Origin: a virus
IMG/VR virus record: IMGVR_UViG_3300047481_000331
Coordinates: 1 to 41,844 of that record
Length of the DNA stretch: 41,844 bases
Strand: one strand, 5' to 3'
Part shown: positions 24,294 to 41,844 of the stretch, in pieces
How positions within the stretch are numbered: position 1 is the first letter of the stretch
How the letters are laid out: the number at the start of each line of letters is the position of its first letter
Translations under genes and position numbers: made by a program
Notes under the pieces: model-generated
Told to the model about the DNA's origin: nothing
The model's input: the letters and a program-made list of their open reading frames with translations, nothing else
The model's database searches: none

Positions 24294-24301
24294 GATAAAT
24301 A
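24294..24301 (+). promoter_or_regulatory. T4-like late promoter octamer before the fibre gene
   Basis: GATAAATA lies at the stop of the 206-aa gene, 21 bases before the ATG at 24323. It is followed by GGAG at 24310-24313 as ribosome binding site. The order octamer, Shine-Dalgarno, ATG is that of a late structural gene. Confidence 0.6.
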
Positions 24302-24322
24302 AATTCATCGGAGTGATTGATT

Positions 24323-25558: not shown

Positions 25559-25567
25559 GGGTAAGAC

Positions 25568-26521: not shown

Positions 26522-26546
26522 TAATTTTATAGACTGTAAGTATCCA

Positions 26547-26554
26547 TCTAAATA
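26547..26554 (+). promoter_or_regulatory. Possible late promoter octamer, one mismatch (TCTAAATA)
   Basis: In the 51-base gap after the virion gene, TCTAAATA differs at one base from TATAAATA. AGGAG at 26561-26565 follows, 7 bases before the ATG at 26573. This is the only gap of more than 15 bases before the long gene string that follows, so it is the most likely site for a promoter of that string. Confidence 0.35.
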
Positions 26555-26572
26555 ACTCGTAGGAGTGAATAG

Positions 26573-26878
26573 ATGGATACCAAAACCTTAATTGCAGAAG
26601 CCAAAGCACGATTTAATCATAATTCGGCTAAGGCCTATCTCAAAGAAAAATACAACAGTAAACTATTAATAGCAGAGCAAGGTGGACTTTGGCGAGCCGA
26701 TGCTCAGACCATTTCGTTCCTAAATTCTTTTACCTCTAAAAAGGTCGTCTTATTAGACACTTTTGACAACCCTGTTGAGGTTGATAGAAAAGCACTACTC
26801 AACACATTAACTGAAGTTAACGAAACAGTAATGAAAGAATGGTATAACGAATGGCAAGAACTAGAAACAAAAAGGTAA
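26573..26878 (+). CDS. Conserved phage protein of unknown function (101 aa)
   Basis: A small charged protein with a strong AGGAG ribosome binding site. Visible features: a helical N-terminus (AEAKARFNHNSAKAYLKEKY), LLIAEQGGLWRADAQTISFL, a strand VVLLDTFDNPVEVDRKALL, and a C-terminal helix NETVMKEWYNEWQELETKR. I recall proteins of this type near the tail fibre genes of marine T4-like phages. Location next to the fibres would fit a fibre chaperone or small virion component, but no family function is known to me. Its last 28 bases overlap the next gene. Confidence 0.6.
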   Translation: MDTKTLIAEAKARFNHNSAKAYLKEKYNSKLLIAEQGGLWRADAQTISFLNSFTSKKVVLLDTFDNPVEVDRKALLNTLTEVNETVMKEWYNEWQELETKR

Positions 26879-27678: not shown

Positions 27679-28465
27679 AGGATTTGTAATCTTAGCGCAA
27701 AACACTAATAAAGTTGACTACGTACAATGTGCAGAAGTCTTAGGACGTAGCATTAAACGTAACATGCCAAATAGTCATGTTACGTTAATCACAGATGAAA
27801 AAGTAAAGTCAAAGATATTTGATAACGTAGTTAAGTTACCATATGGAGATTTAGCGCCTAACAGTGATTGGAAACTAGTCAATGACTGGCAAGTATATGA
27901 AGCAAGCCCGTATGAGTACACAATTAAATTAGAAGCCGATTTGTTTATTCCAACATCAATTGATTATTGGTGGGATGCATTATCAACTAGAGACCTTGTA
28001 ATTTCTACTACTATTAGAAATTTTAAACAAGAGGTATCTGATATACGTGCTTATAGAAAGTTTATAGATGATAACGGATTACCCGATTGCTATAACGCTA
28101 TCACGTACTTTAAAAAATCAGAATTAGCAGAGAAATTTTTTGCTATTGTTAAAGATGTATTTGAGAATTGGAAGTACTATATCAATACATTAAAGTGTAA
28201 TGCTGATGAGCCAGTTACAACTGATTGGGCATATGCTATAGCATCACACATACTAGGTAAAGAAAATACAACATTACCAAACTTTGAATCGATGAGCATG
28301 GTCCACATGAAGCAATGGATCAATGGCATGCCAACAGAAAACTGGACCGATACGTTAATCTATGAGATATTGCCACATACATTAAGAATTAATACTGTAC
28401 CGCAACAATATCCATTTCACTATCAAATCAAGAGTTTTTCTGATAAACTAATGGTGTTAAAATGA
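27671..28465 (+). CDS. Putative GT-A type glycosyltransferase (264 aa)
   Basis: A GTG start overlaps the stop of the preceding gene by 8 bases. Features: KGFVILAQNTNKVDYVQCAE, then SHVTLITDEKVKSKIF, then YEYTIKLEADLFIP with E-A-D at residues 88-90 in the place of DxD, then AITYFKKSE and EPVTTDWAYAIASHIL. The layout is the same as that of the gene before it, with an acidic EAD instead of DVD. A variant acidic motif is compatible with a GT-A fold but weakens the call. The W-rich middle (SIDYWWDAL) is unusual. The next gene overlaps its stop as ATGA. Confidence 0.45.
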   Translation: MSKGFVILAQNTNKVDYVQCAEVLGRSIKRNMPNSHVTLITDEKVKSKIFDNVVKLPYGDLAPNSDWKLVNDWQVYEASPYEYTIKLEADLFIPTSIDYWWDALSTRDLVISTTIRNFKQEVSDIRAYRKFIDDNGLPDCYNAITYFKKSELAEKFFAIVKDVFENWKYYINTLKCNADEPVTTDWAYAIASHILGKENTTLPNFESMSMVHMKQWINGMPTENWTDTLIYEILPHTLRINTVPQQYPFHYQIKSFSDKLMVLK

Positions 28466-28812
28466 GTGATACTAAAGAAGATTATATTATCATATGGGAA
28501 GCACCTAAAATTGTGCCACCTGAGTTTCGTTTATATTATGACGAAGCAGGTAAAGTAATTACATATACCTCAGAAAAATTAGAGGGTAACTATATTGTTA
28601 TTGATGCAATGACTTTTGCGGCTGCTAGACCTGACGTAAGAGTAATTGACGGCAAATTATCTACAGTACAACCGCATGCTATAATTTCAAAGTTAATGCC
28701 ACACGACACTGAGGGTCGTGACTGTGCGTTAGAAGATATTAGCGTAGTTACTGTAAAGAAAGACAAAGTTAAAAAACAAAAGTGGAAATTGAACACATAT
28801 GAACTCAGATGA
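28462..28812 (+). CDS. Protein of unknown function (116 aa)
   Basis: ATGA overlap with the preceding gene. Visible sequence: DYIIIWEAPKIVPPEFRLYY, DEAGKVITYTSEKLEGNYIV, then IDAMTFAAARPDVRVIDGKL, then a Lys-rich end. It is predicted to be mostly beta. I recognise similar short proteins beside glycosyltransferase genes in other marine phages but know no function. The coupling to the transferases on both sides suggests it takes part in the same process (inference). Confidence 0.55.
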   Translation: MSDTKEDYIIIWEAPKIVPPEFRLYYDEAGKVITYTSEKLEGNYIVIDAMTFAAARPDVRVIDGKLSTVQPHAIISKLMPHDTEGRDCALEDISVVTVKKDKVKKQKWKLNTYELR

Positions 28813-29752
28813 TATTGTTGACGTAGCAGATTTAGACTGCATTTATCTAAGTTACGATGAGCCACAGAAAGAAGAATTTTGGCTCAAGATTAAGAACATG
28901 GTGCCTTGGGCTAAACGTGTTGACGGTGTTAAGGGTTCTGATGCGGCACACAAAGCCGCAGGTGAAGCAAGTGATACTGAGCGATTTATTCTTATCGATG
29001 GTGACAACATGCCCGATGAAGAATTTTTCAATATTCAATTAGACTTTACTGGTAAGGATCCTAAATATAAAATAGCACAGTTCCGTTGGAAAGCAGTCAA
29101 CGCTATTAATGGACTACGTTATGGCAACGGTGGCATGAGCAGTTGGACAAAGACTTATGTTGCTAATATGAAAACACATGAGAATCAAAAAGAAGGCGAT
29201 ATTACACGTATTGCTGATTTTTGTTTAGACAGTAAAGACAATTTGTATTGGGCTATGTATGATTGCTATTCAACTACATATCCTAACTACACACCGTTTC
29301 AAGCCTGGCGCGCCGGCTTTAGAGAAGGCGTTAAGATGTGCTTGAATAAGGGCGCTGTACCCACTGTAGATGAATTCAAAGAAACTGTAGCAAGCAGAAA
29401 CCTTAACAATCTGACCATATGGCAAAACGTTGGTACTGATGTAGAAAACGGAAACTGGGCTATTTACGGTGCTAGACTTGGAACATATATGACTATGCTT
29501 ACTGACTGGGAGCATACTAATGTGCAATGGTTCGATAACTATATAGAACTATGGGAAAAGCATAAAGACTATGACCCATTAGATCAAGCAGAAGATATTG
29601 GATCTATGTTACGTGCTAAATTAGGTCTACCTATATGTACATTAAGCCCAGAGCAAAGCAAGTTTTTCAAACGACATGTTAATGCTGATAAGCATAATTT
29701 AGGTCCACTAGTTACGGAGATGGAAGTCATCAGAAGGATAGAAGGCTGGTAA
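28799..29752 (+). CDS. Putative glycosyltransferase with DGDN motif (317 aa)
   Basis: Overlaps the preceding gene by 14 bases. The N-terminal 75 residues read IYLSYDEPQKEEFWLKIKN, then PWAKRVDGVKGSDAAHKAA, then ERFILIDGDNMPDEEFF, with DGDN at residues 67-70. A strand followed by an acidic DxD-like motif, preceded by an AHKAA helix, is a pattern I associate with phage GT-A-like transferases. The remainder is rich in aromatic residues and has WQNVGTDVENGNWAIYGARL. Substrates are unknown. Its stop codon shares a base with the ATG of the first radical SAM gene (TAATG), tying glycosyl transfer and radical chemistry together in expression. Confidence 0.55.
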   Translation: MNSDDIVDVADLDCIYLSYDEPQKEEFWLKIKNMVPWAKRVDGVKGSDAAHKAAGEASDTERFILIDGDNMPDEEFFNIQLDFTGKDPKYKIAQFRWKAVNAINGLRYGNGGMSSWTKTYVANMKTHENQKEGDITRIADFCLDSKDNLYWAMYDCYSTTYPNYTPFQAWRAGFREGVKMCLNKGAVPTVDEFKETVASRNLNNLTIWQNVGTDVENGNWAIYGARLGTYMTMLTDWEHTNVQWFDNYIELWEKHKDYDPLDQAEDIGSMLRAKLGLPICTLSPEQSKFFKRHVNADKHNLGPLVTEMEVIRRIEGW

Positions 29753-31155
29753 TGTCATACGAAACAAATAGAATTAAAGACATTAAGGTCGTAGTAGAAC
29801 GTGAAGCAGGATCAACATTTTGTTTAGCGAAATGGCATCACGTTACTATGTACTTGCAATCAGGAGAGACACATAGTTGTTATCATCCACGACCACATAA
29901 GATTCCATTAAGTGAGTTGGCAGATAACCCATCGGCATTACATAATACACAAGAAAAGAAAATAGAACGTCAAATGATGCTTGAGGGCAAGAAGCCTGAG
30001 GGCTGTCAGTATTGTTGGAATATCGAAGCAATGGGTCCTGACTATATTAGCGACCGTCATATACGTAATGCAAGTATTTTTACTGAAGAACGTTTTGAAC
30101 AAACAGCAAAGGGACCCTGGGATCAAAACATTAATCCAGAATACATTGAAATTAACTTTGGTAATGAATGTAACTTTAAATGTGGTTATTGTCATCCAAA
30201 GTATAGCACAAGTTTCTACAAAGAGATTGAGAAGTTTGGTCCTGTAACCAGTGTAAAGAATCATCGTTGTGATGTTGATTGGATGAAGTTATATCAACGT
30301 GAAGATGATAATCCATATGTAGATGCGTTTTGGGAGTGGTGGCCAGAGATGCGTAAGACATTGAATATCTTGCGTGTAACAGGTGGCGAACCTACATTAC
30401 ATAGTAGCACATGGAGATTGTTAGAACAGATTGACAAGGATCCTATGCCATGGTTAGAACTAAACATTAATAGTAACTTCGGAACAAAGACTGTTCTTTA
30501 TGAACGTCTTGCTGAAAAGGTAAAGAAACTTACAGATGAGGGTAAGATTCGTAGTTTCAAAATGTTCACTAGCATGGATACATGGGGACAACGTGCTGAA
30601 TATATTCGCACTGGATTAGATTTAGAACTATGGGAGAAAAACTTTCATACGTATCTACAAGGTACAAACAGCCCAGTTACGTTTATGATTACGTTTAACA
30701 TCTTCAGTGTTACAACATTTAAGAGTTTGTTAGAGAAGTTCCTAGAGTGGCGCAAGCAGTATGGTTGGTATGATGATAAGCCAAACGATAAACATCGTGT
30801 ACGCTTTGACACACCGTATTTGCGTGAACCTATTCAGTATGATATGAATATACTTCCTAAAGAGCAGTTCATGCCATATATGTATGAGTCATTGAAGTTT
30901 ATGGAAGAAAACACTGATGACTTACGTCCTGACGCATTTACTACGATTGAATATGAAAAGTTCAAACGTGTAGTAGATTACATGGCTGAGACACATTACA
31001 GCGAAGATAAATTAATAGAAGGACGCAGAGATTTCTATAACTGGTTCAACGAGTTAGATGACCGTAGAGAAACAGATATGCTTTCTGTGTTCCCCGAAAT
31101 GATGGATTTTTATAGATTATGTCAGGAAACAAACAGGACAAACCCACTTTCTTAA
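29752..31155 (+). CDS. Radical SAM enzyme 1, N-terminal twitch-like domain (467 aa)
   Basis: The radical SAM motif CNFKCGYC has Cys at 140, 144 and 147, which would hold the 4Fe-4S cluster that cleaves S-adenosylmethionine. The SAM-binding GGEP is at 211-214. Before the core, Cys 24, 43, 85 and 88 (FCLAKWHH, HSCYHP, CQYC) form a putative extra-cluster domain of the twitch/SPASM type. It is placed N-terminally, unlike the usual C-terminal position. Compared with the next four enzymes it is the most divergent: it has one Cys (SCYHP) where they have PCC, and it lacks their 'RFSNICN' block. A Trp-rich stretch (DAFWEWWPEM) follows the core motif. Substrate unknown. Confidence 0.85.
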   Translation: MSYETNRIKDIKVVVEREAGSTFCLAKWHHVTMYLQSGETHSCYHPRPHKIPLSELADNPSALHNTQEKKIERQMMLEGKKPEGCQYCWNIEAMGPDYISDRHIRNASIFTEERFEQTAKGPWDQNINPEYIEINFGNECNFKCGYCHPKYSTSFYKEIEKFGPVTSVKNHRCDVDWMKLYQREDDNPYVDAFWEWWPEMRKTLNILRVTGGEPTLHSSTWRLLEQIDKDPMPWLELNINSNFGTKTVLYERLAEKVKKLTDEGKIRSFKMFTSMDTWGQRAEYIRTGLDLELWEKNFHTYLQGTNSPVTFMITFNIFSVTTFKSLLEKFLEWRKQYGWYDDKPNDKHRVRFDTPYLREPIQYDMNILPKEQFMPYMYESLKFMEENTDDLRPDAFTTIEYEKFKRVVDYMAETHYSEDKLIEGRRDFYNWFNELDDRRETDMLSVFPEMMDFYRLCQETNRTNPLS

Positions 31156-32411
31156 GAAGGTTACTCTTAGAAAAGAGTGACACTTTTTGCATAGTGCCGT
31201 GGACGCACTTACATACAACACCTACGGGTATTGCCGCTCCTTGCTGTATTGCTGAGAGTTGTGCTACCGAAGACGGTGTTGGTGATGCTAAGAAACAGGG
31301 TTTGATGGAGTTAGTCAACAGTCCAAAGATGAATCAATTACGATTGGACATGTTAAAGGGTGTAAAGAATAACGAATGCAACAAATGCCATAAGCACGAA
31401 GAGCAGGGTATCAAAAGTTTCCGTCAAATGATTAATGATGAGATGGGTGGTTACTTTGAGGAAGCCATTGAAACTACAAACTTAGATGATGGTTCATTGT
31501 CTGAGTTTAAGATGCGTTATTTTGATATACGATTCAGTAACATTTGTAATTTCAAATGCCGTACATGTGGGTCAGCATTTAGTACTCAGTGGGAACAAGA
31601 AGATTTAAAGAACAACGTATGGTATGCTAAAGTTCACCCTAAAAATGATAACAAAGCATTTTTGAATGATGTTATTGAACAGATTGACCATATGGAAACT
31701 GCATACTTTGCAGGTGGTGAGCCATTAATTACAGAAGAACATTATATCTTATTGGAAGAAATGATTAAACGTAAACGCACTAACATTAAGTTGCGTTATA
31801 ATACCAATATGAGTAACTTAAAGTTTAAGGATAAGGATTTATTGTCATTATGGAAAAACTTTAAGAGTGGCGTAAACATCTATGCTAGCATCGACCATGT
31901 TGGTGAACGTGCAGAATATATCAGACATGGTACTGATTGGGGCGTAGTAGAAACTAATTTTCTAAACGCTAAGAAACAAAACTTCATTACAATTCAGATT
32001 AATACAGTATTAAGTGTGTTCAACTATCTTACTATATTTGATTTCTACAAGTATCTGATAGATAAGAAATTATATTCAGCAAAGGATAGCATTTACACTG
32101 TATATAACATGTCTACCCCTGAGCATTTAACATGCCACATACTACCACCTGATTATAAAGAGCGTGGCAATGTGAGCATGCAACAAGCAATTCAATATAT
32201 GCATTCACATGGGTTTGGTCAAGACAAGATTAAACAATTATCAGATACTACGCAATGGGTATTCTCACAACATACATGGGAAGCACAAAAGGCTAAATTT
32301 AGAGAAGAGGTGTCACGTTTGGACAGAATTAGAAGTGAAGATTTCACTAAGGTATTTCCTGAAATAGGTAATCTATTAAGACCAGATAGAGTAAAATTAT
32401 GGCCGGTATAA
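31119..32411 (+). CDS. Radical SAM enzyme 2, N-terminal twitch-like domain (430 aa)
   Basis: Starts 37 bases inside the preceding gene. The N-terminal Cys-rich part has C24, C42, C43, C48, C87 and C90 (FCIVPWTHLH, PCC, CNKC). The linker MRYFDIRFSNI leads to the radical SAM motif CNFKCRTC (C143, C147, C150). The SAM-binding AGGEPLI is at 198-204. Family knowledge: radical SAM proteins with an auxiliary twitch/SPASM domain bind one or two further 4Fe-4S clusters and modify peptides or sugars, for example by dehydrogenation, thioether formation or epimerisation. Which reaction occurs here cannot be said. It is a clear paralogue of the next three genes. Confidence 0.88.
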   Translation: MSGNKQDKPTFLRRLLLEKSDTFCIVPWTHLHTTPTGIAAPCCIAESCATEDGVGDAKKQGLMELVNSPKMNQLRLDMLKGVKNNECNKCHKHEEQGIKSFRQMINDEMGGYFEEAIETTNLDDGSLSEFKMRYFDIRFSNICNFKCRTCGSAFSTQWEQEDLKNNVWYAKVHPKNDNKAFLNDVIEQIDHMETAYFAGGEPLITEEHYILLEEMIKRKRTNIKLRYNTNMSNLKFKDKDLLSLWKNFKSGVNIYASIDHVGERAEYIRHGTDWGVVETNFLNAKKQNFITIQINTVLSVFNYLTIFDFYKYLIDKKLYSAKDSIYTVYNMSTPEHLTCHILPPDYKERGNVSMQQAIQYMHSHGFGQDKIKQLSDTTQWVFSQHTWEAQKAKFREEVSRLDRIRSEDFTKVFPEIGNLLRPDRVKLWPV

Positions 32412-33625
32412 AAGATAAAGACTACTACTTAAAAGAAAGTAAAACATTCTGTATGTTCCCGTGGATGCATTTATATGCAAGTCCTCGCGGAGATGTATAT
32501 CCTTGCTGTACAACGACACAAACACAAAAGTTGGGTAACGCAAAAGAAAATACGTTACAAGAAATATTCAACTCTGAAGAAACTAAAAAACTACGTTTGG
32601 ATATGTTGAGCGACACACCAAACGAAATGTGCAAGACTTGCTATAAGATGGAAGAAAACTCTCCAAACAGTTATAGAAATTACAGCAAAGACATGTTTGG
32701 TAAGTACTTTGATGATGTTGTCACACAGACATGGAGTGACGGATCAGTAGATGAATTTAAAATGCGTATGATTGACATACGCTTTAGTAATATCTGTAAC
32801 TTTGCGTGTCGTACATGTGGTAGCGAATGTAGCAGTCAATTTGCAGCCGAAGAACGTAAATTAGGCAAGCATGATTTTATCGTATTGCATGTTGACGATG
32901 GTAAGGGTAAAGTACTTGAAGAAGTATTAGAGCATTTGGATCATGCTGACATGGTTTACTTTGCAGGCGGCGAGCCACTGATCACCGATGAACATTATAT
33001 TATACTAGAAGAAATAATTAAGCGTGGTAGAACAGATATCAAGTTACGTTATAATACCAACGCTAGTAATATACATTTCAAAGGCAGAAACTTAATTGAC
33101 TTATGGAATAAGTTTAGTCACATTGAAGTAGCATGTAGTATAGATCATTTTGGTGAACGTGCAGAACTTATACGTCACGGCACTGATTGGGGAGTAGTAG
33201 AAAGCAACCTATTACAGTTTAGAAAAATGCGTCAAGTATTGTTTAGTGTAAGCACTGTATTGAGTGTGTTTAACTACTTAACTATACATGACTTCTATAA
33301 CTATCTGATACAAAAGAATATTATATTTAAAGAAGATACAAATCATTATCTTTGTTTGACAGCCAATCCTAGTTTCTATTGTGCAACTACATTACCTAAA
33401 TCATTAAAAGAAGGTATGCAGCCAAACATAGAGCAGTTCTGCGATAACTGGAGCCATTTTGAATTGATTACAAGACAAGTAAAATATGCTATCAACTTTG
33501 CAAACAGCGCACATACTTGGGAAGAAAACAAATATGACTTTATCAAGTACAGTTGGCTACGTGATAGATTACGTGGAGAAGATATACTAAAGGTATTTCC
33601 TGAATTGGCATTATTAATTATATGA
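32399..33625 (+). CDS. Radical SAM enzyme 3, N-terminal twitch-like domain (408 aa)
   Basis: Overlaps the preceding stop by 13 bases. N-terminal Cys: C18, C36, C37, C78 and C81 (FCMFPWMHL, VYPCC, CKTC). The radical SAM motif CNFACRTC has C133, C137 and C140, with an extra C144 (GSECSSQF). AGGEPLITDEHY begins at 189. The closest relative in the window is the next gene. Shared blocks include ESKTFCMFPW, GDVYPCC, VDDGxGKVLEEVL and LRYNTNASNI, and the DNA is also similar, so the two arose by a tandem duplication. The protein has no signal peptide and is probably cytoplasmic. Confidence 0.88.
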   Translation: MAGIKDKDYYLKESKTFCMFPWMHLYASPRGDVYPCCTTTQTQKLGNAKENTLQEIFNSEETKKLRLDMLSDTPNEMCKTCYKMEENSPNSYRNYSKDMFGKYFDDVVTQTWSDGSVDEFKMRMIDIRFSNICNFACRTCGSECSSQFAAEERKLGKHDFIVLHVDDGKGKVLEEVLEHLDHADMVYFAGGEPLITDEHYIILEEIIKRGRTDIKLRYNTNASNIHFKGRNLIDLWNKFSHIEVACSIDHFGERAELIRHGTDWGVVESNLLQFRKMRQVLFSVSTVLSVFNYLTIHDFYNYLIQKNIIFKEDTNHYLCLTANPSFYCATTLPKSLKEGMQPNIEQFCDNWSHFELITRQVKYAINFANSAHTWEENKYDFIKYSWLRDRLRGEDILKVFPELALLII

Positions 33626-34851
33626 ACAAAGACTACTTATTAAACGAAAGTAAAACATTTTGCATGTTTCCCTGGGTGCATTTAAACGCTACCCCTAAGG
33701 GTGATGTGTACCCTTGCTGTAGTAATGATTATACAACTCCAGTGGGTAATACTAAAGAGCATACATTAAAGCAAATCTTTAACAGTCCAAAGATGAAAGA
33801 ACTACGTTTGGACATGTTGAATGAACGTAAGAATAAGATTTGTGATTTCTGTTACAAGCACGAAGAAGCAGGCCCGCATAGTTTTAGAAACTATAGTAAA
33901 GAGCATTTTGCAAAGTACTTTGATGAAGTTGTTCCAACTACAAAAGAAGATGGAACAGTAGACGAATTCAAAATGCGGTACTTTGATATTCGTTTTAGCA
34001 ATATCTGTAACTTTAAATGTCGTACATGTGGTAGCGAGTTCAGCAGTCAATGGGGTGCTGAGATGCAAAAGAACTTTGATCCAAAGCATCCAGTAGTCAT
34101 TCACGTAGACGATGGACACGGTAAGGTGTTGGAAGAAGTACTAACACATATTGAACATATTGATTTGGCATACTTTGCAGGTGGTGAACCACTTATTACA
34201 GACGAACATTATACTATGCTTGAAGAGATGATTCGTTTGGGCAGAACTGATATTACATTGCGATATAATACAAACGCAAGCAATATCAAATATAAAAAGC
34301 ATGACATATTAGACTTATGGAAGCATTTTAAAAAGATTGAACTAAGTTGCAGTATTGACCATTACGGCGAACGTGCTGAATGGTTGCGTAAGGGAACTGA
34401 TTGGGCTAAAGTAGAAAGTAACTTACTTACTTTTAGAGAACTTGACTATATTAGTTTCCAAATGAATACTGTGTTTAGTATTTTTAACTACCCCACAATA
34501 GGAGAATTTTATCAGTACCTTAAAGAGAAAAATATCGTTCGTAGAGAAGATTGGTATCATTCACTGTATTTGGCTGTTCATCCTTCTTATTATTGCGCTA
34601 AGTCATTACCTAAAGAATTAAAGGGCCCTGCTGCCGAAAGTGCATTAAAATGGGCTGATAATAATGACGGTGATGGAACTAGCCTCTCACGACTGGTGCG
34701 TGATGCTGTAAACTTTGCTAGTGATAGGGATCAATGGAGCGAAGTGCGTGAAAGTTTCTTAATGCATACCGGTTCAATCGATAGAATACGTGAAGAAAAC
34801 TTCTGGGAAGTGTTCCCCGAATTAAATAAATTACAAGACTTGTTGGAGTGA
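33622..34851 (+). CDS. Radical SAM enzyme 4, N-terminal twitch-like domain (409 aa)
   Basis: ATGA overlap with the preceding gene. N-terminal Cys: C14, C32, C33, C74 and C77 (FCMFPWVHL, VYPCC, CDFC). Radical SAM motif CNFKCRTC at C129, C133 and C136. GGEP at 187-190, followed by LITDEHY. The C-terminal part has no Cys-rich SPASM block, so the auxiliary cluster site would be only N-terminal. It is a tandem duplicate of enzyme 3, but the C-terminal 120 residues are more diverged than the core, which suggests that the difference in substrate lies there (inference). Confidence 0.88.
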   Translation: MNKDYLLNESKTFCMFPWVHLNATPKGDVYPCCSNDYTTPVGNTKEHTLKQIFNSPKMKELRLDMLNERKNKICDFCYKHEEAGPHSFRNYSKEHFAKYFDEVVPTTKEDGTVDEFKMRYFDIRFSNICNFKCRTCGSEFSSQWGAEMQKNFDPKHPVVIHVDDGHGKVLEEVLTHIEHIDLAYFAGGEPLITDEHYTMLEEMIRLGRTDITLRYNTNASNIKYKKHDILDLWKHFKKIELSCSIDHYGERAEWLRKGTDWAKVESNLLTFRELDYISFQMNTVFSIFNYPTIGEFYQYLKEKNIVRREDWYHSLYLAVHPSYYCAKSLPKELKGPAAESALKWADNNDGDGTSLSRLVRDAVNFASDRDQWSEVRESFLMHTGSIDRIREENFWEVFPELNKLQDLLE

Positions 34852-34853
34852 CA

Positions 34854-36125
34854 ATGGAAAAGGAAGTTGTAAAAAATCTAGTAGAAAATGGCAAGCATTT
34901 CTGTGTATTGCCCTGGGTGCATTTTCATGCATGGCCAGATAAACGTGTATTACCCTGCTGTGTAGCAGATAGTAATATGCCTGTAGCAGAAATTAAGTCA
35001 GACGAATCAATTATTCAGATGATGAATAGTGAAGAATACAAAAAGATGCGTTTGGCTATGATGAACGATGAACATGTTGAGGCATGCAAACGTTGCTATG
35101 ACTTAGAACTTATGGGTACTTGGACTATGCGCCAAAGTCACAATAAGCGTAAAGGTCTAGATTATGTAGATTATATCGTTGACAATACTAACGACGATGG
35201 TAGTCTCAAAGAGTTTGAGATGAAGTACATGGATATACGTTTCAGTAATCTATGTAACATGAAATGTCGTAGTTGCGGACCTAGTTGCTCAAGTCAATGG
35301 GCACAAGAGTTTATGGACAATCGTGGGGAAGAGATGTTTAAGAAGTATTTCCCTAATCAAAAGATTGTTATTAACAACAACGAAGATCAGCAGTTTATGG
35401 CTAAACTAAAGCCATACTTGCGTGACGTAACAGAAGTTTATTTCGCAGGTGGCGAAATTATTATTACTCCTGAACACTATGAGTGTTTAGATTATTGGGT
35501 AGAAAACGATTTATGCGACCAAGTTGAATTAACTTATACAACAAACTTTAGTAGTTTGAAATATAAGAAAGATGTTGACTTGATTGCTTATTGGAAAAAG
35601 TTCCCACAACTTAAGATATGGGCTAGTTTAGATGCTCATGGTGAAGTTGCAGAGTGCATTAGAAAAGGCACCGATTGGGATAGGATCGTCAGGAATATCA
35701 AAGAAGTAAAAGAGCAAGTACCTCATGCTCAGTTTCAGATCACTCCAACAATTTCCATCTGGAACGTCTTTGATTTTCCTGACTTTTTTGATTACATGGT
35801 TGATAACGGCTTTATCGATACTAAGAGTAGCCCAAGATTCAATCTTGCTACTAACCCATGGTATGCTAATATCATGATATTGCCTAAGCACGTTAAGCGT
35901 AGACTTGTTGAGTTATATCGTGTATATCAAGAAAGGTATAAAGACAACATTGATATCTATAATGGTTTCAAAATGATCATTTATAATCTTAGTGTTGGTG
36001 ATGAGAACAAAGGTGGCATACTAGAATTCAAACAATTCAATGATGAACTAGATCAGTTCCGTGACGAAAAGTTTGAAGACCTTGTTCCGGAAATTAAAGA
36101 GGTGTATGAGTGGGCGGCAAGTTAA
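34854..36125 (+). CDS. Radical SAM enzyme 5, N-terminal twitch-like domain, variant GGEI (423 aa)
   Basis: I choose the ATG at 34854 because GGAG ends 5 bases before it. A GTG at 34848 overlapping the previous stop is possible and would add two residues. N-terminal Cys: C17, C35, C36, C78 and C81 (FCVLPWVHFH, LPCC, CKRC). Radical SAM motif CNMKCRSC at C134, C138 and C141, with an extra C145. In the SAM-binding motif the usual GGEP is GGEI (199-202, YFAGGEIIITPEHY). The GGE part that contacts SAM is kept, so activity is still likely. It is more distant from enzymes 2-4 than they are from one another. Confidence 0.85.
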   Translation: MEKEVVKNLVENGKHFCVLPWVHFHAWPDKRVLPCCVADSNMPVAEIKSDESIIQMMNSEEYKKMRLAMMNDEHVEACKRCYDLELMGTWTMRQSHNKRKGLDYVDYIVDNTNDDGSLKEFEMKYMDIRFSNLCNMKCRSCGPSCSSQWAQEFMDNRGEEMFKKYFPNQKIVINNNEDQQFMAKLKPYLRDVTEVYFAGGEIIITPEHYECLDYWVENDLCDQVELTYTTNFSSLKYKKDVDLIAYWKKFPQLKIWASLDAHGEVAECIRKGTDWDRIVRNIKEVKEQVPHAQFQITPTISIWNVFDFPDFFDYMVDNGFIDTKSSPRFNLATNPWYANIMILPKHVKRRLVELYRVYQERYKDNIDIYNGFKMIIYNLSVGDENKGGILEFKQFNDELDQFRDEKFEDLVPEIKEVYEWAAS

Positions 36126-37081
36126 TAGAAATCTTTGCTCCCGAACCATATATTGCAGTAACATGGCAAGTTAATAATTATTGTAACTTTCGCTGTAGTT
36201 ATTGCAACCCTGGCAATTGGGGCGGCGAGAATCCTAATAATGGAAACTTAGACAAGTATCTTGCTAACTTAGAAACGATTGTAGGTCGTTATAAGAAAGC
36301 AGGATACAAACACTTTAAGTTTTTCTTTAGTGGCGGTGAGCCCACTGCCTGGCGTAACTTCATACCTATCTGTGAATGGATACATGAAGCACTACCGCAA
36401 TCTACATTAGCGGTAAACACTAATCTAAGTCGTCCGCTAGCATGGTGGGAAAAGCATCATCATTTGTTTGATGATATTGTTGCTAGTTTCCACGTAGAGT
36501 TCGCCGACAAGAAACGCTACGAAGAGAATAGCATTTTTCTATGCGAACGTGTAAACTATCTTAGCACTAAGATGCTTATGCATGAAGAACGTTTTTGGGA
36601 AGTTGTAGACTTTGCAGAGCATTTAAAAACTGTAATGCCCAATTACTTTATTGAATGGACTCCGTTATACGATGAGTTGAATCACGTTACTGGTCCATGG
36701 CAATATAAGGATCCTGCAAAAACAGAATTCTTTAAGACGCATAATATTGAAATGCAGTTTACTAAAGACAAGCCCGGTAAACGCACAGAGTATACAGTTA
36801 GTTACAATAGATATCAAGACCAATCTACCACTGTTTGCAATGCCAATGACTTAATTGTTAATGGGCAAAACTTCTTCAGTGGTTGGCGTTGTAATGTAGG
36901 TGACTGTATCTTTATTAATACAGTAGGTGATGTTAGTCTAGCCAGTTGTGGGTTAGGTGGACATGTAGGACATATACTAGATGATATCAGCAGAGTAGGT
37001 CCTAAACAAATCACATGCAAGAAAGAAATGTGCATGTGTGGAACTGATATCATTATACCAAAATTCACACTAGATAAATAA
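36110..37081 (+). CDS. Radical SAM enzyme 6 with C-terminal SPASM/twitch-like Cys block (323 aa)
   Basis: GTG start overlapping the previous gene by 16 bases, with GAGGTG upstream. The radical SAM motif CNFRCSYC comes very early (C25, C29, C32), followed by NPGNWGG. SGGEP spans 74-78. There is no N-terminal Cys domain. Instead, seven Cys lie at the C-terminus: C243, C261, C266, C280, C303, C308 and C310 (GWRCNVGDC, SLASCGLGG, CKKEMCMCG). This fits the usual SPASM/twitch position for auxiliary 4Fe-4S clusters. It therefore belongs to a different lineage from enzymes 1-5. Family members modify peptides or sugars, and the substrate here is unknown. A 5-base gap separates it from the next gene. 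Confidence 0.87.
   Translation: MGGKLIEIFAPEPYIAVTWQVNNYCNFRCSYCNPGNWGGENPNNGNLDKYLANLETIVGRYKKAGYKHFKFFFSGGEPTAWRNFIPICEWIHEALPQSTLAVNTNLSRPLAWWEKHHHLFDDIVASFHVEFADKKRYEENSIFLCERVNYLSTKMLMHEERFWEVVDFAEHLKTVMPNYFIEWTPLYDELNHVTGPWQYKDPAKTEFFKTHNIEMQFTKDKPGKRTEYTVSYNRYQDQSTTVCNANDLIVNGQNFFSGWRCNVGDCIFINTVGDVSLASCGLGGHVGHILDDISRVGPKQITCKKEMCMCGTDIIIPKFTLDK
37073..37080 (+). promoter_or_regulatory. GATAAATA at the enzyme 6 stop codon, doubtful late promoter
   Basis: The same octamer as at the structural genes overlaps the stop codon of enzyme 6, but it is only 6 bases before the next ATG (37087). A transcript from it would begin at or next to the start codon and leave no ribosome binding site. 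It may be functional for leaderless reading or be chance, since the last codons LDK plus TAA can give this sequence. Confidence 0.25.
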
Positions 37082-37086
37082 AAATC

Positions 37087-38439
37087 ATGACAGACCTAGA
37101 CAAAGAAAAAATTAAAGTAGTTTACAGTTGGATCGGTCCACGTGGTCCTATGTGGAATACAGAGTTACCTCATGTACTAAGTTTTGCGCAAGTCGCAGAA
37201 GGTGGTCAGACAACATCCAGACATTGGTGGGCAGATGACTTATGGAATAGATTGTTTAGACACCGTAAGCACTCATATGAATTGTATCCTGCGCAGTCTA
37301 TTGAAATAGACGATGAACGACCATTTGTGTTCCCCTTCTCACTTGCTTGGAGAATACCATTTGAACGCTACTTTGTCGGCGGTACAGGACTGTTAGAGTT
37401 CTCTCACATGCCACATCATTTACGCCATTTAGTCAGAAATGCAAATGGTTATATACTAGTGGATTTAAGTGTGGAAGCGTTTATGTCAGACAATGACATA
37501 CGTTCTATCACAAGTTATTTTAGAGACAGTTGCGGTCTGCCACTTAATAAAATAATTTACATGACGGGTTGTATGAATGCTAATCATTTATACGAACGTT
37601 ATTGTGAAAGGTTTAGAGTTCCAAACGATGACTTGAATCGTATGAAGATCATTTCTTATCCATCAAGTCAACAGATATTTGCTACTAATATTGATAACGG
37701 ATCAGTATCAGAGCCTCCATATGATGAAAACTTCATCCCTGAGAAATTGTTTCTAATGTGGAATCGTAGATTCAGAACACATAGAACACAACTTAGTTTG
37801 GCATTGTTCAAAGCAGGATTAGTAGATAGAAGTTACATAAGTTTTAACTTACGTGACCCTGAAAAACAAGATGCAATCTTTAGAGATTCATTCCATCATC
37901 ACACTGTTTTACATTTGGGTGTAACCCCTCAAGATATTGATGCTTTCAATGCTAAGTTGCCATTAGTCATAGACGGTGCAACAAATATCAATGCAATGTG
38001 CGAAGATTTAGATAGTCAGACTAGACCTTACTATCATAATAGTTTGGTAAGCATTGTTACTGAAACTAACTGGGATCTTCCTGAAGTAACACTAACTGAA
38101 AAGTCATTTAAGCCATTGAAAGAAAAGCATCCGTTTATTATAGTTGGCGTGCCCGGTGCATTAAAGTCATTAAGAGAAATGGGATTCAAAACCTTTAATC
38201 AGTTTTGGCCAGAAGATTATGATGATATCGAAGATCCAAACATGAGAATGCAACGTATAGCAACTGTATGCCAATTAATTGGTAGTTGGAATCAGGATCA
38301 GATCAGAGAATTTAGAAGGCAAGTAAAGCCTATCATAGAACATAACTATGAAGTTCTTAAGAAGCCTACTAGCGAAATTGCTGTGAGAAAAATCACAGAA
38401 ATTGTAAGAAGTAACCTTAGGAGAAATCCCGATAAATGA
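37087..38439 (+). CDS. Putative glycosyltransferase with TEK-type motif (450 aa)
   Basis: The C-terminal third contains NSLVSIVTETNWD, then LTEKSFKPLKEKHPFIIVGV, then PGALKSLREMGFKTFNQFWP (about residues 318-375). A 'TEK' followed by a hydrophobic strand ending in 'PFIIVG-x-P' recalls the nucleotide-sugar site of GT-B type enzymes such as GT10 fucosyltransferases and related viral transferases. The middle has LFLMWNRRFRTHRTQLSLAL. The N-terminal half is rich in aromatic and His residues and is not recognised. Neighbours are a radical SAM enzyme and a nucleotide-sugar epimerase (ATGA overlap), which fits sugar work. Donor, possibly the epimerase product, and acceptor are unknown. Confidence 0.5.
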   Translation: MTDLDKEKIKVVYSWIGPRGPMWNTELPHVLSFAQVAEGGQTTSRHWWADDLWNRLFRHRKHSYELYPAQSIEIDDERPFVFPFSLAWRIPFERYFVGGTGLLEFSHMPHHLRHLVRNANGYILVDLSVEAFMSDNDIRSITSYFRDSCGLPLNKIIYMTGCMNANHLYERYCERFRVPNDDLNRMKIISYPSSQQIFATNIDNGSVSEPPYDENFIPEKLFLMWNRRFRTHRTQLSLALFKAGLVDRSYISFNLRDPEKQDAIFRDSFHHHTVLHLGVTPQDIDAFNAKLPLVIDGATNINAMCEDLDSQTRPYYHNSLVSIVTETNWDLPEVTLTEKSFKPLKEKHPFIIVGVPGALKSLREMGFKTFNQFWPEDYDDIEDPNMRMQRIATVCQLIGSWNQDQIREFRRQVKPIIEHNYEVLKKPTSEIAVRKITEIVRSNLRRNPDK

Positions 38440-39413
38440 AAAAGATTTTAATTTGTGGCGCCGGCGGATTCATTGGATCACATTTAGCAAAAGCATTCAA
38501 AGATCAAGGGCATTATGTTATTGGCGCGGATCTAAAACATCCAATATATGAAAAAACTGTAGCCGATGAGTTTTACATCATGGACTTGCGTGAACAAGAA
38601 AGTGTGCGCAAATTAATAACAAGTGACATAGATGAAATTTATCAGTTGGCTGCTGATATGGGTGGCGCCGGCTATATATTTACTGGTGAACATGACGCTG
38701 ACATAATGCATAACAGTTGTCAAATTAATCTTAACATACTACATGAGATGGTACAAAAAAATGTTAAGAATGTTTTCTATAGTTCAAGTGCATGTATGTA
38801 TCCAAGTCATAATCAGGAAGATCCTGACAACCCTTTACTAGCAGAAGATAGTGCATATCCTGCCAATCCGGATAGCGAGTATGGATGGGAAAAACTATTC
38901 AGTGAACGTTTGTATATGACATATGCTAGAAACTATGGCTTGCGTGTACGCATAGCACGTTTTCACAATATATTTGGACCCAATGGTTCTTGGAATAACG
39001 GTAAAGAAAAGGCTCCTGCTGCCTTATGCCGTAAAGTAGCAATGTGTGATGATGGCGGCATAGTAGAAGTTTGGGGTCCGGGCATTCAAACACGTAGTTT
39101 TCTATTCATCGATGAGTGTGTCATAGGCATTCAAAAGATAATGGAAAGTGATTGTGATCAACCTGTAAACTTAGGTAGTACTAGAATGATTAGCATTAAT
39201 GACTTAGTGTTGTTAATTGCAAGCATTGCTAACAAAGTAGTACTAATAAAAAATATTCCAGGACCAATGGGTGTAATGGGACGCAATAGTGACAACGCTC
39301 TAATCAAAGAGTTAGTGGGTTGGACTCCTAACGAAGATTTAGAATATGGATTAAAGATAACATATAACTGGATACAGGAACAAATAAACAATCATGTTCC
39401 TGATCATGATTAA
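38436..39413 (+). CDS. GDP-mannose 3,5-epimerase-like enzyme (325 aa)
   Basis: An extended SDR fold: GAGGFIGSH at 8-16 binds NAD, and YGWEK gives Tyr149 and Lys153. The sequence follows GDP-mannose 3,5-epimerase (GME) closely: ADMGGAGYIFTG, YSSSACMYPSHNQ, RIARFHNIFGPNGSW, GKEKAPAALCRK, WGPGIQTRSFLFIDECV. The two acid/base residues of plant GME have counterparts here, Cys120 (SSAC) and Lys192 (KEKAPAA). GME converts GDP-D-mannose to GDP-L-galactose or GDP-L-gulose. The exact substrate is inferred, and other NDP-sugar epimerases of this clade are possible. The length is slightly below plant GME. AGGAG at 38419-38423 precedes the ATG. It overlaps the previous gene by four bases. Confidence 0.8.
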   Translation: MKKILICGAGGFIGSHLAKAFKDQGHYVIGADLKHPIYEKTVADEFYIMDLREQESVRKLITSDIDEIYQLAADMGGAGYIFTGEHDADIMHNSCQINLNILHEMVQKNVKNVFYSSSACMYPSHNQEDPDNPLLAEDSAYPANPDSEYGWEKLFSERLYMTYARNYGLRVRIARFHNIFGPNGSWNNGKEKAPAALCRKVAMCDDGGIVEVWGPGIQTRSFLFIDECVIGIQKIMESDCDQPVNLGSTRMISINDLVLLIASIANKVVLIKNIPGPMGVMGRNSDNALIKELVGWTPNEDLEYGLKITYNWIQEQINNHVPDHD

Positions 39414-39428
39414 CCTAACGGATAAACA

Positions 39429-40304
39429 ATGAAAAAGTATATAATTGGATTAGGATGTAGTTGGACACAGGGTGAGGGCGGCTACCCAGAAGAAATTTGG
39501 AAAGAATATAACGGCAGAGTTCAATTACGAGGGGTAGATGATTATCATTTACGTAAATACGAACACGAAAACAGTTGGGTAAACGTATTATGTAGAGATC
39601 ATTTCCCTGAATACACTCCTATGAATTTAGGGGCACGGGGTATTGGTAATCGTGCTGCCGTCCACCAGTTGCATTTTTGCGATAGAATAGATTGGAACAA
39701 TAGTACAGGTATTATTGTATTGATGCAAAGCGGATTTGAACGTTTTGACTTCTTCCAACAACATCCCAAACATAGACGTAATCAAGACGATGGCTATAGT
39801 AATGGAGAATATGTACACTACAAATGGCGCACAATGTGGCCCTTCTCAGGCAACGGTGGCGCAGAAGAACCATTATGGGCTGTCTATGAAAGAATGTTAC
39901 ACAGTGATCAATTTGTAGCAAGTGAGCAGTTGATGGCTTTACTAGATTTGCAGACATTTGCTAAAGCACATAACTTTAAAGTTGTTGTAGCCAATGGATT
40001 CAATCAACATCATAGGGGTATAAAAAACTATCTGATAGAGCATGCAGGATATCTTGCTGAAAAATTTAATTGGAACACATTTTTACACGATACAACTCCT
40101 TATGTAGCAATGATTCAAAAACTAGTAGAATTGGATGGTATATTAAAATCAGAAGATTGGGGAATGTATCATCAGACGTATTACAATAGAGATTGGCCCG
40201 CTAAATACTTAACCAACTGTCAAGGTGCCCATCCAACCGTAGAAGGTTATAAAGTGGTTGCTGAAGAGTTGGCTAGATTTATAAGATTGCGTGGGTATGT
40301 CTAA
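39429..40304 (+). CDS. SGNH/GDSL-hydrolase-like protein (291 aa)
   Basis: N-terminal GLGCSWTQGEG puts a candidate nucleophile Ser at 11. NLGARGIGNRAA supplies the block II Gly and block III Asn (Asn74). IIVLMQSGFERFDF follows a strand. Near the end, GAHPTVEGYKVVAEELARFI supplies the block V His (His268). The Asp that usually sits three residues before this His is not present in the standard place. SGNH enzymes are esterases or acetyltransferase-associated hydrolases, and phage members often act on O-acetyl groups of surface sugars. In this position an O-acyl esterase or transferase for the glycan is plausible (inference). It is separated by 15 bases from the epimerase gene. Confidence 0.6.
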   Translation: MKKYIIGLGCSWTQGEGGYPEEIWKEYNGRVQLRGVDDYHLRKYEHENSWVNVLCRDHFPEYTPMNLGARGIGNRAAVHQLHFCDRIDWNNSTGIIVLMQSGFERFDFFQQHPKHRRNQDDGYSNGEYVHYKWRTMWPFSGNGGAEEPLWAVYERMLHSDQFVASEQLMALLDLQTFAKAHNFKVVVANGFNQHHRGIKNYLIEHAGYLAEKFNWNTFLHDTTPYVAMIQKLVELDGILKSEDWGMYHQTYYNRDWPAKYLTNCQGAHPTVEGYKVVAEELARFIRLRGYV

Positions 40305-41844
40305 AAAGAAAATAAGTTTTGTTAGCCCTAACTTCCAACAAGGACCTAAGGAATTTAATGCATATTATCTTCCTTATAGTCCTGCCGTATTATGGAGTTA
40401 TGTAGTACAATTCTCGCATATTAATGATAATTTTGAGTTGGGTGACTTTATTTGGCGAAGAGACTTAATAGAAGAAGCAGTTGAATTACTTAAAGATAGT
40501 GACATTGTAGGCTTTAGTACGTACATTTGGAATCGTAGTTATAGCGCAGTATTAGGCAGAGAATTAAAGAAAGCAAATCCAAATATTTTTATTATAGCAG
40601 GTGGTCCTGAGTATCCTATTGAGAAACCTGACTTTTTTAAAAAGTATCCCTTTATTGACGTATGTGTTAAACTTGAAGGTGAGATTACTTTTAGAAAGAT
40701 ATTAGAAAATCTAATATTGCCTGAGCCTGACTTTAAATCAATACCCGGTTTATTAATTAATAATAACGGTGAAACTATAGACACTGGTAGTAGCCCTCGT
40801 ATAGATGATTTAGACAAGATACCTAGTCCTTACTTGACGGGTATATTTGATAAGTTAATGGCTAAGCATCCTGAGATACGTTGGAACGCAACATTAGAAA
40901 CAAATCGCGGTTGCCCCTACGCATGCACATTCTGCGACTGGGGATCATTAACTTATAACAAAGTTAAGAAGTTTAACCTTGAGCGTGTATATGCTGAATT
41001 AGAATGGATAGGTAAAAAAGGTTTAGACTTTGTAAGTATTACTGACGCTAACTTTGGTATATTCCCTGAGCGTGATATGTTGATTGCTGACAAACTCATT
41101 GAAACACAAAAGACATATGGTAATCCAAAAGCATACACAATTGCTTGGGCAAAGAATCAAAAGCAAGAAGTAGTTGAGATTGTGCGTAAACTAATTTACG
41201 AAGGCGGTAGTAAGATTGGCTTGAACTTGTCAGTACAAACAATGGATGATAACGTACTTGATATTATTAAACGCAAGAATCTTGAAATGAATAAGATTGA
41301 AGAAGTATTCAAGATGTGTGAAGAGAATAACATTCCATTATATACTGAATTGATATTAGGGTTGCCAGGTGAAACATTAGAGAGTTGGAAAGAAAACTTC
41401 TTTAAATTATACAAGAGCGGTAACCATACCGGTATTACTATCTATCAAGCACAGTTACTTGAAAATGCTGAAATGAATTTGACACAACGTGGTTTATATA
41501 AGTTAGAAGGTCGTGTTGTTTATGACTATCTTGTTGGTACTTATAACGAACATGAATTACGTGAAGGTGTAGAAGTTGTAATCTCTACTAGAGATTTACC
41601 TAAAGAGAAAATGACACAAGCCCAACTAATTAGTTGGTTTCAAAATACTTTTCACATTAATGGTATAACTAACTATATTAGCCGTGTGCTATATAAGCAA
41701 CAGGGCGTTGAGTACAGAGAGTTTTACGATAAACTTTGGAATCATATACAAAAAGATGAATGGTTAAAAAGTGAAGTAGATAGAATTGCAGACCATTATG
41801 GTAATTGGGCAAAGCATGGACTTATCGACCATACACCTATACAA
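40297..41844 (+). CDS. Radical SAM enzyme 7, B12-binding-like N-terminus, 3' end outside window
   Basis: The frame overlaps the preceding stop by 8 bases and stays open to the last base, giving 516 residues. Residues 1-140 look like a cobalamin-binding fold (DIVGFSTYIWNRSYS, NIFIIAGGPEYP, VCVKLEGEITF). The DxHxxG motif that supplies the cobalt-binding His is not seen there. The radical SAM motif CPYACTFCDWGS has C206, C210 and C213, preceded by ETNRG. DANFGIFPERD and then LGLPGETLESW are typical of class B radical SAM enzymes. These catalyse methylations and ring contractions, among other reactions. An ATG is chosen (40297), though a GTG two codons earlier is possible. It does not resemble enzymes 1-6 beyond the core. 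Confidence 0.82.
   Translation, partial: MSKKKISFVSPNFQQGPKEFNAYYLPYSPAVLWSYVVQFSHINDNFELGDFIWRRDLIEEAVELLKDSDIVGFSTYIWNRSYSAVLGRELKKANPNIFIIAGGPEYPIEKPDFFKKYPFIDVCVKLEGEITFRKILENLILPEPDFKSIPGLLINNNGETIDTGSSPRIDDLDKIPSPYLTGIFDKLMAKHPEIRWNATLETNRGCPYACTFCDWGSLTYNKVKKFNLERVYAELEWIGKKGLDFVSITDANFGIFPERDMLIADKLIETQKTYGNPKAYTIAWAKNQKQEVVEIVRKLIYEGGSKIGLNLSVQTMDDNVLDIIKRKNLEMNKIEEVFKMCEENNIPLYTELILGLPGETLESWKENFFKLYKSGNHTGITIYQAQLLENAEMNLTQRGLYKLEGRVVYDYLVGTYNEHELREGVEVVISTRDLPKEKMTQAQLISWFQNTFHINGITNYISRVLYKQQGVEYREFYDKLWNHIQKDEWLKSEVDRIADHYGNWAKHGLIDHTPIQ

Follow-up and report, generated by a model that had tools for sequence, protein, structure and literature searches.

Three ingredients of the locus described here are already in print: radical S-adenosylmethionine (SAM)-rich T4-like marine genomes, such as the environmental genome TARA_ERS488813_N000010, for which 12 radical SAM genes are given (PMC5332604); radical SAM and glycosyltransferase cassettes of pelagimyophages, described as lying with tail fibers in one variable host-recognition region (PMC7029224); and a phage GDP-mannose 3,5-epimerase, listed among 13 cell-wall proteins of cyanophage S-SCSM1 along with fucosyltransferases (PMC9602691). 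The locus in question lies in a 41,844-base viral record of IMG/VR (IMGVR_UViG_3300047481_000331; “the window” below means this whole stretch), in which tail/adhesion genes on the left are followed by a densely packed unit that begins at 26573 and fills the rest of the record, combining seven genes for oxygen-sensitive radical SAM enzymes (RS1 to RS7) with glycosyltransferase-like genes and a GDP-mannose 3,5-epimerase gene.

The window shares with TARA_ERS488813_N000010 the many radical SAM genes in a T4-like phage and with S-SCSM1 the phage-encoded epimerase. However, the treatment of the former concerns Fe-S cluster metabolism rather than sugar genes or ordered orthologues (PMC5332604), pelagimyophages are SAR11 phages for which the passages on the host-recognition region state neither the radical SAM family nor its order or function (PMC7029224), and the term “radical” is absent from the main text on S-SCSM1 (PMC9602691). 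Five of the window genes are members of the N-terminal twitch (N-twitch) family NF033640 in tandem with sugar genes, and a related record (G038) has 12 full-length members, the most counted in one viral record. A literature search that left most subscription journals outside its reach found no paper giving a substrate or function for this family and none describing an ordered N-twitch cassette with glycosyltransferases and an epimerase in jumbo phages. The system is real, conserved, and puzzling, and it is partly foreshadowed in print. Its gene content makes a role in sugar or glycan chemistry likely; the fuller reading, a cassette with which jumbo T4-like aquatic phages tailor sugars or glycans, a soluble phage protein being the acceptor, is in our estimate evenly balanced between right and wrong.

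Seven radical SAM genes in one packed unit

The window contains a real cluster of seven radical SAM genes. PF04055 has seven matches, all within 30151-41394, and together with the NF033640 and B12-binding matches these bear out the initial annotation, which had placed seven radical SAM genes of three lineages in 29752-41844. It had also reported CxxxCxxC in all seven proteins and GGE in RS1 to RS6, both of which are readable in the translations. The features of the unit are as follows.

26547..26556, + strand, T4-type late-promoter-like site TCTAAATAAC ahead of the gene for a 101-amino-acid (101-aa) protein; likely operon start
26573..26878, + strand, 101-aa protein, uncharacterized; first gene of the unit, its position before GTa conserved
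26851..27678, + strand, GTa, putative GT8/glycogenin-like glycosyltransferase (weak glycogenin match), homologous to GTb
27671..28465, + strand, GTb, putative glycosyltransferase of the GTa family by homology (phrog_1903, function not annotated)
28462..28812, + strand, 116-aa protein of no known family in a conserved position between GTb and GTc
28799..29752, + strand, GTc, glycosyltransferase-like protein with a GT-A-type fold (predicted structure), adjoining RS1
29752..31155, + strand, RS1, N-terminal twitch radical SAM protein (NF033640, 310.5 bits)
31119..32411, + strand, RS2, N-terminal twitch radical SAM protein (NF033640, 363.6 bits)
32399..33625, + strand, RS3, N-terminal twitch radical SAM protein, a recent addition in a three-leaf clade (NF033640, 362.3 bits)
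33622..34851, + strand, RS4, N-terminal twitch radical SAM protein (NF033640, 374.7 bits)
34848..36125, + strand, RS5, N-terminal twitch radical SAM protein (NF033640, 359.3 bits)
36110..37081, + strand, RS6, radical SAM protein with conserved C-terminal cysteines (PF04055, 31.0 bits; cut-off, 29.5)
37087..38439, + strand, glycosyltransferase-like protein with a GT-B fold (predicted structure)
38436..39413, + strand, GDP-mannose 3,5-epimerase (2c59, E 9e-96; catalytic residues aligned)
39429..40304, + strand, SGNH/GDSL-like protein, weak (GDSL structures at E 0.15)
40291..41844, + strand, RS7, B12-binding radical SAM protein, 3' end beyond the window (PF04055, 57.9 bits; PF02310, 38.7 bits)

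From 26851 onward the intergenic gaps run from -37 to +15 bases, as expected of the single operon that had been proposed. The 101-aa protein has no Pfam match above the cut-off, and scanning the window for tRNA genes and Rfam families found nothing. In relatives, longer genes (190 to 214 aa) at the place of the 116-aa gene have an NDP(H/N) motif in common in the C-terminal part of their products.

RS1 to RS5 cover nearly the full NF033640 model (NCBIfam N_Twi_rSAM, twitch domain-containing radical SAM protein) at 310 to 375 bits, far above its curated cut-off of 170. Pfam SPASM matches the N-termini of RS2 to RS5 (E 2e-6 to 7e-14), whereas RS1 has no Pfam SPASM match. RS6 reaches only 28.8 bits against NF033640, over the radical SAM core, and is therefore outside the family. 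Its C-terminal cysteines, noted at first sight of the sequence, are borne out by an alignment of 22 family sequences in which Cys 261, 303, and 308 are invariant and Cys 280 and 310 nearly so, and among the solved structures that it matches best are MoaA, SkfB (a peptide enzyme), and viperin-like enzymes. The B12-like character given to RS7 agrees with its PF02310 match. RS7 is complete in a near-identical relative (L009, 16670-18604, 644 aa), and that copy scores 259 bits against NF033712, the KedN5-type B12 radical SAM methyltransferases, which is below the cut-off of 700, so that it is not a member. Against PADLOC, RS7 matches PDC-M51A (E 4e-33), which may simply reflect the common architecture of B12-binding radical SAM proteins.

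Two other accounts of the cluster were considered and rejected. Viperin-type antiviral enzymes do not fit, as the PADLOC pVip matches are weak and limited to the radical SAM core. Chance clustering or miscalled frames are at odds with the curated scores, the conserved motifs, and the ordered orthologues.

Gene order is conserved in relatives

A scan of IMG/VR with the RS1-RS5 alignment confirmed at least 559 relatives among the 600 pattern matches listed, and all 49 of the related viral records examined match NF033640 above its cut-off. Matches at E 0.001 number 3 to 21 in each of these 49 records, other radical SAM types included, a count that is too high for the family since control genomes also match below the cut-off and RS6 scores there. 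Recounting full-length N-twitch genes with our own profiles, which may miss genes cut by tile or locus ends, gave 9 in G033, 5 in G034, 8 in G036, and 12 in G038 (117 kb), the four retrieved records richest in radical SAM genes, and 1 to 5 in each of 79 viral loci. PF04055 counts ranged from 1 to 25 per record across 34 chosen records, with 25 within one 77-kb viral record.

Conserved order in related phages was the check that the initial annotation had proposed, and the genes prove to be neither absent nor scattered. The order RS1 to RS6 is kept in 48 of the 51 loci that have at least four reciprocal best matches to the window; among all 79 loci such matches were found for RS1 in 76, RS4 in 66, RS6 in 61, RS5 in 57, RS2 in 33, and RS3 in 2. 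These order counts, like those for co-occurrence and promoters below, were obtained with simple open reading frame (ORF) calls and with profiles derived from these very loci; the relatives are not independent, and one contig can recur across several scans. Tree support is 0.98 to 0.99 for the RS2, RS4, and RS5 groups and low (0.29) for the RS1 group, while RS3, with its two reciprocal matches, sits in a clade of three leaves. Judged from these comparisons, RS1, RS2, RS4, RS5, and RS6 are old ordered orthologue groups and RS3 is a recent addition. Old, separate orthologue groups are what would be expected if the enzymes have different jobs.

The same picture emerges from fixed points outside the radical SAM genes. 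With the structural gene at 23673-24293 as the anchor, and with loci kept if they had 8 kb downstream (58 of 80), a radical SAM gene lies downstream in 55 of 58 loci and RS1 in 45 of 58, and GTa, GTb, and GTc are each present in 57 of 58. Anchoring on GTc, with loci kept if GTc was called at the anchor and 4 kb followed (67 of 80), placed a radical SAM gene within 6 kb in 67 of 67 usable loci.

Sugar genes accompany the N-twitch genes

At least one glycosyltransferase family of the cassette occurs in all 79 N-twitch viral loci and a nucleotide-sugar-type family in 59 of the 79, which in this phage lineage bears out the initially proposed link of the radical SAM genes to sugar genes. The genes overlap as one unit, with median gaps of -7 bases for GTc to RS1, -8 for RS1 to the next N-twitch gene, and -4 from one N-twitch gene to another.

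The epimerase matches the structure of plant GDP-mannose 3,5-epimerase (2c59) at E 9e-96, and by hand mapping S118, Y149, and K153 (the triad), the C120/K192 pair, and R283 align with the plant catalytic residues; a catalytic triad, a Cys-Lys pair, and an Arg are named for this enzyme in a review (PMC8787198). The model of the protein encoded at 37087-38439 (predicted local distance difference test [pLDDT], 86) points to a GT-B fold along the length of the protein: the best 50 rows of its VIA comparison are all glycosyltransferases, headed by Helicobacter pylori alpha-1,3-fucosyltransferase (2nzx; Z 12.6, root mean square deviation [rmsd] 5.5, 279 residues aligned), with which rows for GtfC, EXT1/EXT2, and T4 beta-glucosyltransferase (Z 11.7) are tied. 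The protein has no Pfam match and no PDB sequence-profile match at E 1. Because the Pfam GT10 model PF00852 matches none of the 22 GT-B family members at E 0.1, the window protein included, it is filed as GT-B fold only. The SGNH-like protein (39429-40304) has its best GDSL structure at E 0.15, alongside a design entry at 0.28, and conserves Gly-Cys-Ser and His-Pro. Thus, of the genes initially described as interspersed with the radical SAM genes, the epimerase is upheld by 2c59 and the glycosyltransferase by its predicted GT-B fold, and the SGNH-like assignment stays weak.

Three putative glycosyltransferases had also been proposed upstream, and GTc is the one that its model strengthens. The GTc model (pLDDT 85) has PBCV-1 capsid glycosyltransferase as its top Foldseek match (2p6w, E 5.3e-4) and reaches a VIA Z of up to 9.8 (6p61; rmsd 3.1, 141 aligned) over approximately residues 10 to 163, the N-terminal half. 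Most of its VIA rows are glycosyltransferases and some are nucleotidyltransferases, which also have this fold, so that glycosyl transfer is a putative activity of GTc. PDB sequence profiles gave chance-like matches only (E ≥ 0.11) for GTc and were uninformative for both proteins, so the GTc and GT-B folds are predicted ones. GTa and GTb are homologous (hhalign probability, 99.6) and stay putative glycosyltransferases by sequence, the GTa profile matching glycogenin weakly (E 0.076).

Relatives add further sugar-type genes. An StrB-type amidinotransferase gene lies near the radical SAM genes in 14 of 79 loci (1bwd, E 1.1e-51); its best structural relative bears the name inosamine-phosphate amidinotransferase. 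In L009, a nucleotide-sugar dehydrogenase gene follows two genes after RS7 (TIGR03026, E 7.8e-43, 146.8 bits, below the cut-off of 189.8), and DegT is found among the neighbors in relatives. A set of 57 proteins encoded near radical SAM genes, one per cluster from four radical SAM-rich records, matched 19 Pfam families that are mainly of small-molecule and nucleotide-sugar types, with epimerase, DegT, CTP transferase, FkbM, and GT10 families found once each; one of the 57 matches PF00852 at E 2.4e-4. The comparison set (57 of 151 proteins from elsewhere in a 335-kb relative, hence from a different record) had mostly capsid, portal, ATPase, and replication families, plus three GT2, among the first 25 of its 60 families.

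Twitch domain and likely chemistry

BtrN, a 2-deoxy-scyllo-inosamine dehydrogenase, oxidizes an aminocyclitol, and its auxiliary cluster is thought to accept an electron (PMC9012708). The N-twitch enzymes resemble it in having a four-cysteine site for an auxiliary cluster and a weak twitch profile match: the RS profile at residues 16 to 94 matches the C-terminal twitch of BtrN at E 0.0047 (4m7s) and 0.009 (4m7t). Of 307 distinct N-twitch sequences, 52 of which are bacterial, 305 retain the four twitch cysteines as well as those of CxxxCxxC, and the motif CxxxCxxC is present in all 307 (in RS6 and RS7 it was seen by eye); for this count, sequences outside 350 to 560 aa were dropped (10 of 361) and identical ones were then removed (351 to 307). 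The four conserved cysteines would probably bind one auxiliary Fe-S cluster. However, the twitch domain follows the radical SAM domain in BtrN and precedes it in the RS enzymes (in RS4, twitch at residues 16 to 94 and the radical SAM motif at 129 to 136), and for this reason they may be said to work like BtrN without being members of its group. The likeness extends to gene context, in that a gene like that for inosamine-phosphate amidinotransferase lies near radical SAM genes in relatives of the window phage. The cysteine pattern and the StrB-type neighbor fit oxidation at sugar or cyclitol carbons, and they do not prove it.

Promoters and timing

Transcription probably starts near 26547, ahead of the gene for the 101-aa protein, which makes the unit larger than the interval 29752-41844 first given. 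The late-like motif TCTAAATAAC stands approximately 25 nucleotides (nt) before the start at 26573, and related sites are found ahead of 341 and 24317; GATAAATA or TCTAAATA stand 23 to 25 nt before three starts in the window, and another two copies of GATAAATA overlap the ends of genes. In the window, the octamer of T4 late promoters, TATAAATA, was found 0 times versus 8.2 times expected (standard deviation, 2.96), possibly through avoidance of spurious late promoters. Because that scan was empty, a variant late motif was tried, which was picked after inspection of the data. In 79 of 133 distinct relatives it occurs within a 121-nt stretch around the start of the equivalent first gene, versus 1.3% of random 121-nt stretches, and among relatives (not de-duplicated) 178 of 215 G2-like tail genes have it ahead of them. 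Before radical SAM genes it was seen at 0 of 261 RS1 genes and 2 of 412 N-twitch genes, with 0.7% for random 70-nt windows.

Sigma-70-type sites scoring 11 to 12 of 12 precede the operon in 17 of the 54 relatives without the late motif versus 0 of the 79 with it. A simple sigma-70 and terminator scan of 23000-41844 in the window gave no excess over shuffles (62 versus 68.5 and 10 versus 9.2). In L028, L287, and similar loci the sigma-70-type promoter replaces the late-type one, in some cases after a terminator-like hairpin seen by eye; we read this as a promoter swap between lineages.

The position right behind the adhesion genes, as initially annotated, stands; that the operon is simply part of the late structural unit does not, since many relatives have a sigma-70-type promoter of their own. 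Judged by its promoter sequences, the cassette is thus transcribed as a unit of its own, at a time that differs between lineages. In the lineage of the window, late timing favors a virion acceptor, which the other promoters do not.

Proposed role and alternatives

A sequence of four steps would account for the cassette. The first, which the sequence supports well, would be conversion of host GDP-mannose by the epimerase to GDP-L-galactose or GDP-L-gulose, while in relatives dehydrogenases, dehydratases, aminotransferases, or the StrB-type amidinotransferase would supply other sugars. In the second, the N-twitch enzymes may cleave SAM at the CxxxCxxC cluster and abstract a hydrogen atom from a sugar carbon; if the reaction is oxidative, the electron would pass to the four-cysteine auxiliary cluster, as thought for BtrN. 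The outcome would be keto, epimerized, or deoxy positions, and RS7 may add a methyl group using B12. The third step, for which there is support at the level of predicted folds, would be attachment of the sugars one after another by the GT-A-type and GT-B proteins. The fourth is the least certain: the acceptor may be a soluble phage protein, probably the adhesin or tail proteins encoded just upstream, and its decoration could alter host recognition or shield the virion. We infer substrates, products, and acceptor alike, and the last is probably a phage protein. The initial interpretation, a multi-step radical pathway most likely for an unusual sugar or glycan, is partly supported: the operon, its link to sugar genes, and the conserved order hold, whereas action of the enzymes on sugars and their arrangement in a single linear pathway are conjectural.

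Membrane proteins bear on the acceptor. Within 5 kb of radical SAM genes, 0 of 1,321 proteins (0 of 167 clusters) have three or more membrane helices, as predicted by a simple hydropathy count, versus 7 of 254 elsewhere in G017, which speaks against a lipid-linked glycan pathway complete in itself and gives mild preference to a soluble acceptor. A general depletion of membrane proteins near radical SAM genes was rejected, as it is not significant by cluster, and the argument here uses solely the lack of proteins with at least three helices.

Since the N-twitch radical SAM genes are firmly linked to genes for a GDP-sugar epimerase and for glycosyltransferase-type proteins, there are substrates that can be tested. 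If the proposal is true, radical enzymes join the tools that phages have for surface sugars, and many new enzymes become available to carbohydrate chemistry. A bolder version, which is tentative and on balance doubtful, is a phage-made virion glycan code written by radical chemistry, in which up to a dozen ordered N-twitch enzymes (with up to 25 radical SAM genes per record) alter individual carbons of sugars that are L-galactose-type, guanidinylated, or otherwise exotic and that glycosyltransferases place on the phage's own adhesin. Such a code would involve reactions not known from cellular glycan pathways.

Several results weigh against a sugar role or against the virion as its target. Cassette sugar families of any kind occur in only 4 of 29 bacterial N-twitch loci, two of which (L102 and L103) look like phage contigs, and none occurs in Vibrio phage K566, which has five N-twitch matches in 41 kb. 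The bacterial neighbors that were looked at (heme-related, PhoX, proline racemase, and methyltransferase genes) are mutually inconsistent. At least 37 of the 57 proteins near radical SAM genes have no Pfam match, and the neighbors in radical SAM-rich records (L118 to L134) include a tryptophan halogenase, two proteins of Asp/Asn hydroxylase families, and a 2-oxoglutarate oxygenase, which are atypical as sugar enzymes. No Pfam or NCBIfam model matched the StrB-type protein at the limits used. The search that found the BtrN twitch also gave an unrelated nicking-joining enzyme at E 0.0052 and viperin with a better match than BtrN, which makes the BtrN match a hint only; the Pfam SPASM matches of RS2 to RS5 are firmer. 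Proteins with at least one membrane helix are found in 10 of 167 clusters near radical SAM genes versus 21 of 254 elsewhere in G017, which is not significant (P = 0.45). Finally, the sigma-70-type operon promoter of 17 of 54 relatives weakens the virion-acceptor step.

This last result is also what would be expected if the cassette remodels the host envelope (lipopolysaccharide [LPS] or capsule) and thereby blocks superinfection, an explanation that we consider unlikely. Such a role has been proposed for the glycosyltransferases of pelagimyophages and for cyanophage LPS genes. Genes of the same kind are found in the variable host-recognition regions of pelagimyophages (PMC7029224), and the cell-wall set of S-SCSM1 includes the epimerase (PMC9602691). 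However, the 167 clusters near radical SAM genes lack any flippase- or polymerase-like protein with three or more helices, a need that host flippases could serve, and the lineage of the window itself has a late-promoter-like site.

It is quite unlikely that the N-twitch enzymes instead modify amino acid residues, in the adhesin or in a small protein (the 116-aa protein, for example), with the sugar genes being a separate function that shares the variable region. SPASM/twitch enzymes often act on peptides, the RS6 structure matches (MoaA, viperin-like enzymes, SkfB) would suit this account, many paralogues could mean many sites, and the bacterial N-twitch family is not tied to the cassette sugar families. 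Nevertheless, the arrangement of the cysteines suggests a single auxiliary cluster, the number found in twitch enzymes, rather than two, and the radical SAM and glycosyltransferase genes overlap as a unit and co-occur in all 79 loci. No precursor-like small gene was recognized, though no search was aimed at a precursor or a peptide-recognition domain. Production of a modified nucleobase or a small, diffusible natural-product-like molecule rather than a surface glycan is very improbable: halogenase, AMP-binding, aldehyde dehydrogenase, and hydroxylase families lie near radical SAM-rich segments, and the GT-B model also matches T4 beta-glucosyltransferase, a DNA-acting enzyme, but in the window the cassette adjoins tail genes and not replication genes, and its gene content varies after GTc in the way that surface glycan loci often do.

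Phage lineage and neighboring genes

The phage lineage behind the cassette is jumbo, T4-like, and aquatic. The baseplate wedge protein is 31 to 34% identical over 92 to 100% of its length to those of RaK2, GAP32, and Atu_ph07-type jumbo myoviruses, the 335-kb relative has genes for a portal protein and a major capsid protein of T4 type, and the record of one relative is 525 kb. The likeness to RaK2, GAP32, and Atu_ph07-type phages lies in that related baseplate protein; they differ in that RS1 and GTc have no tblastn match there. In single-sequence tblastn searches of 50,697 phage records at E 1e-5, RS1 and GTc matched nothing, whereas RS4 matched three records (22 to 27% identity), including that of a single-cell amplified marine virus. 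Vibrio phages K566 and K567 were the sole annotated phage records found to have several N-twitch genes.

The genes to the left of the unit include the following.

341-3712, baseplate wedge gene (phrog_10646, E 8.7e-261)
3718-23508, virion protein of 6,596 aa (phrog_10938; the scan covered the first 2,094 aa)
23673-24293, structural gene, 206 aa

Three shorter genes follow the giant virion gene, in what is likely a tail/adhesion region, and the packed unit comes after them.

Several minor observations concern N-twitch genes in bacterial records. Contigs L088, L102, and L103, binned as Rhodobacteraceae/Rickettsiales, have the phage cassette order and are probably misbinned phage contigs. In L104, L106, and other Flavobacteriales, an N-twitch radical SAM gene lies near hemB-, hemL-, and hemE-like genes (by eye) and a ChaN heme-binding gene (Pfam), hinting at another role for the family. 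Bacteriovoracaceae and related bacteria (L089, L090, L091, L096, and L099) have several closely spaced N-twitch radical SAM genes. In the window itself, the interval that separates the giant virion gene from the gene for the 206-aa protein has room for a 54-aa ORF (23509-23673), which is shorter than the ORFs listed.

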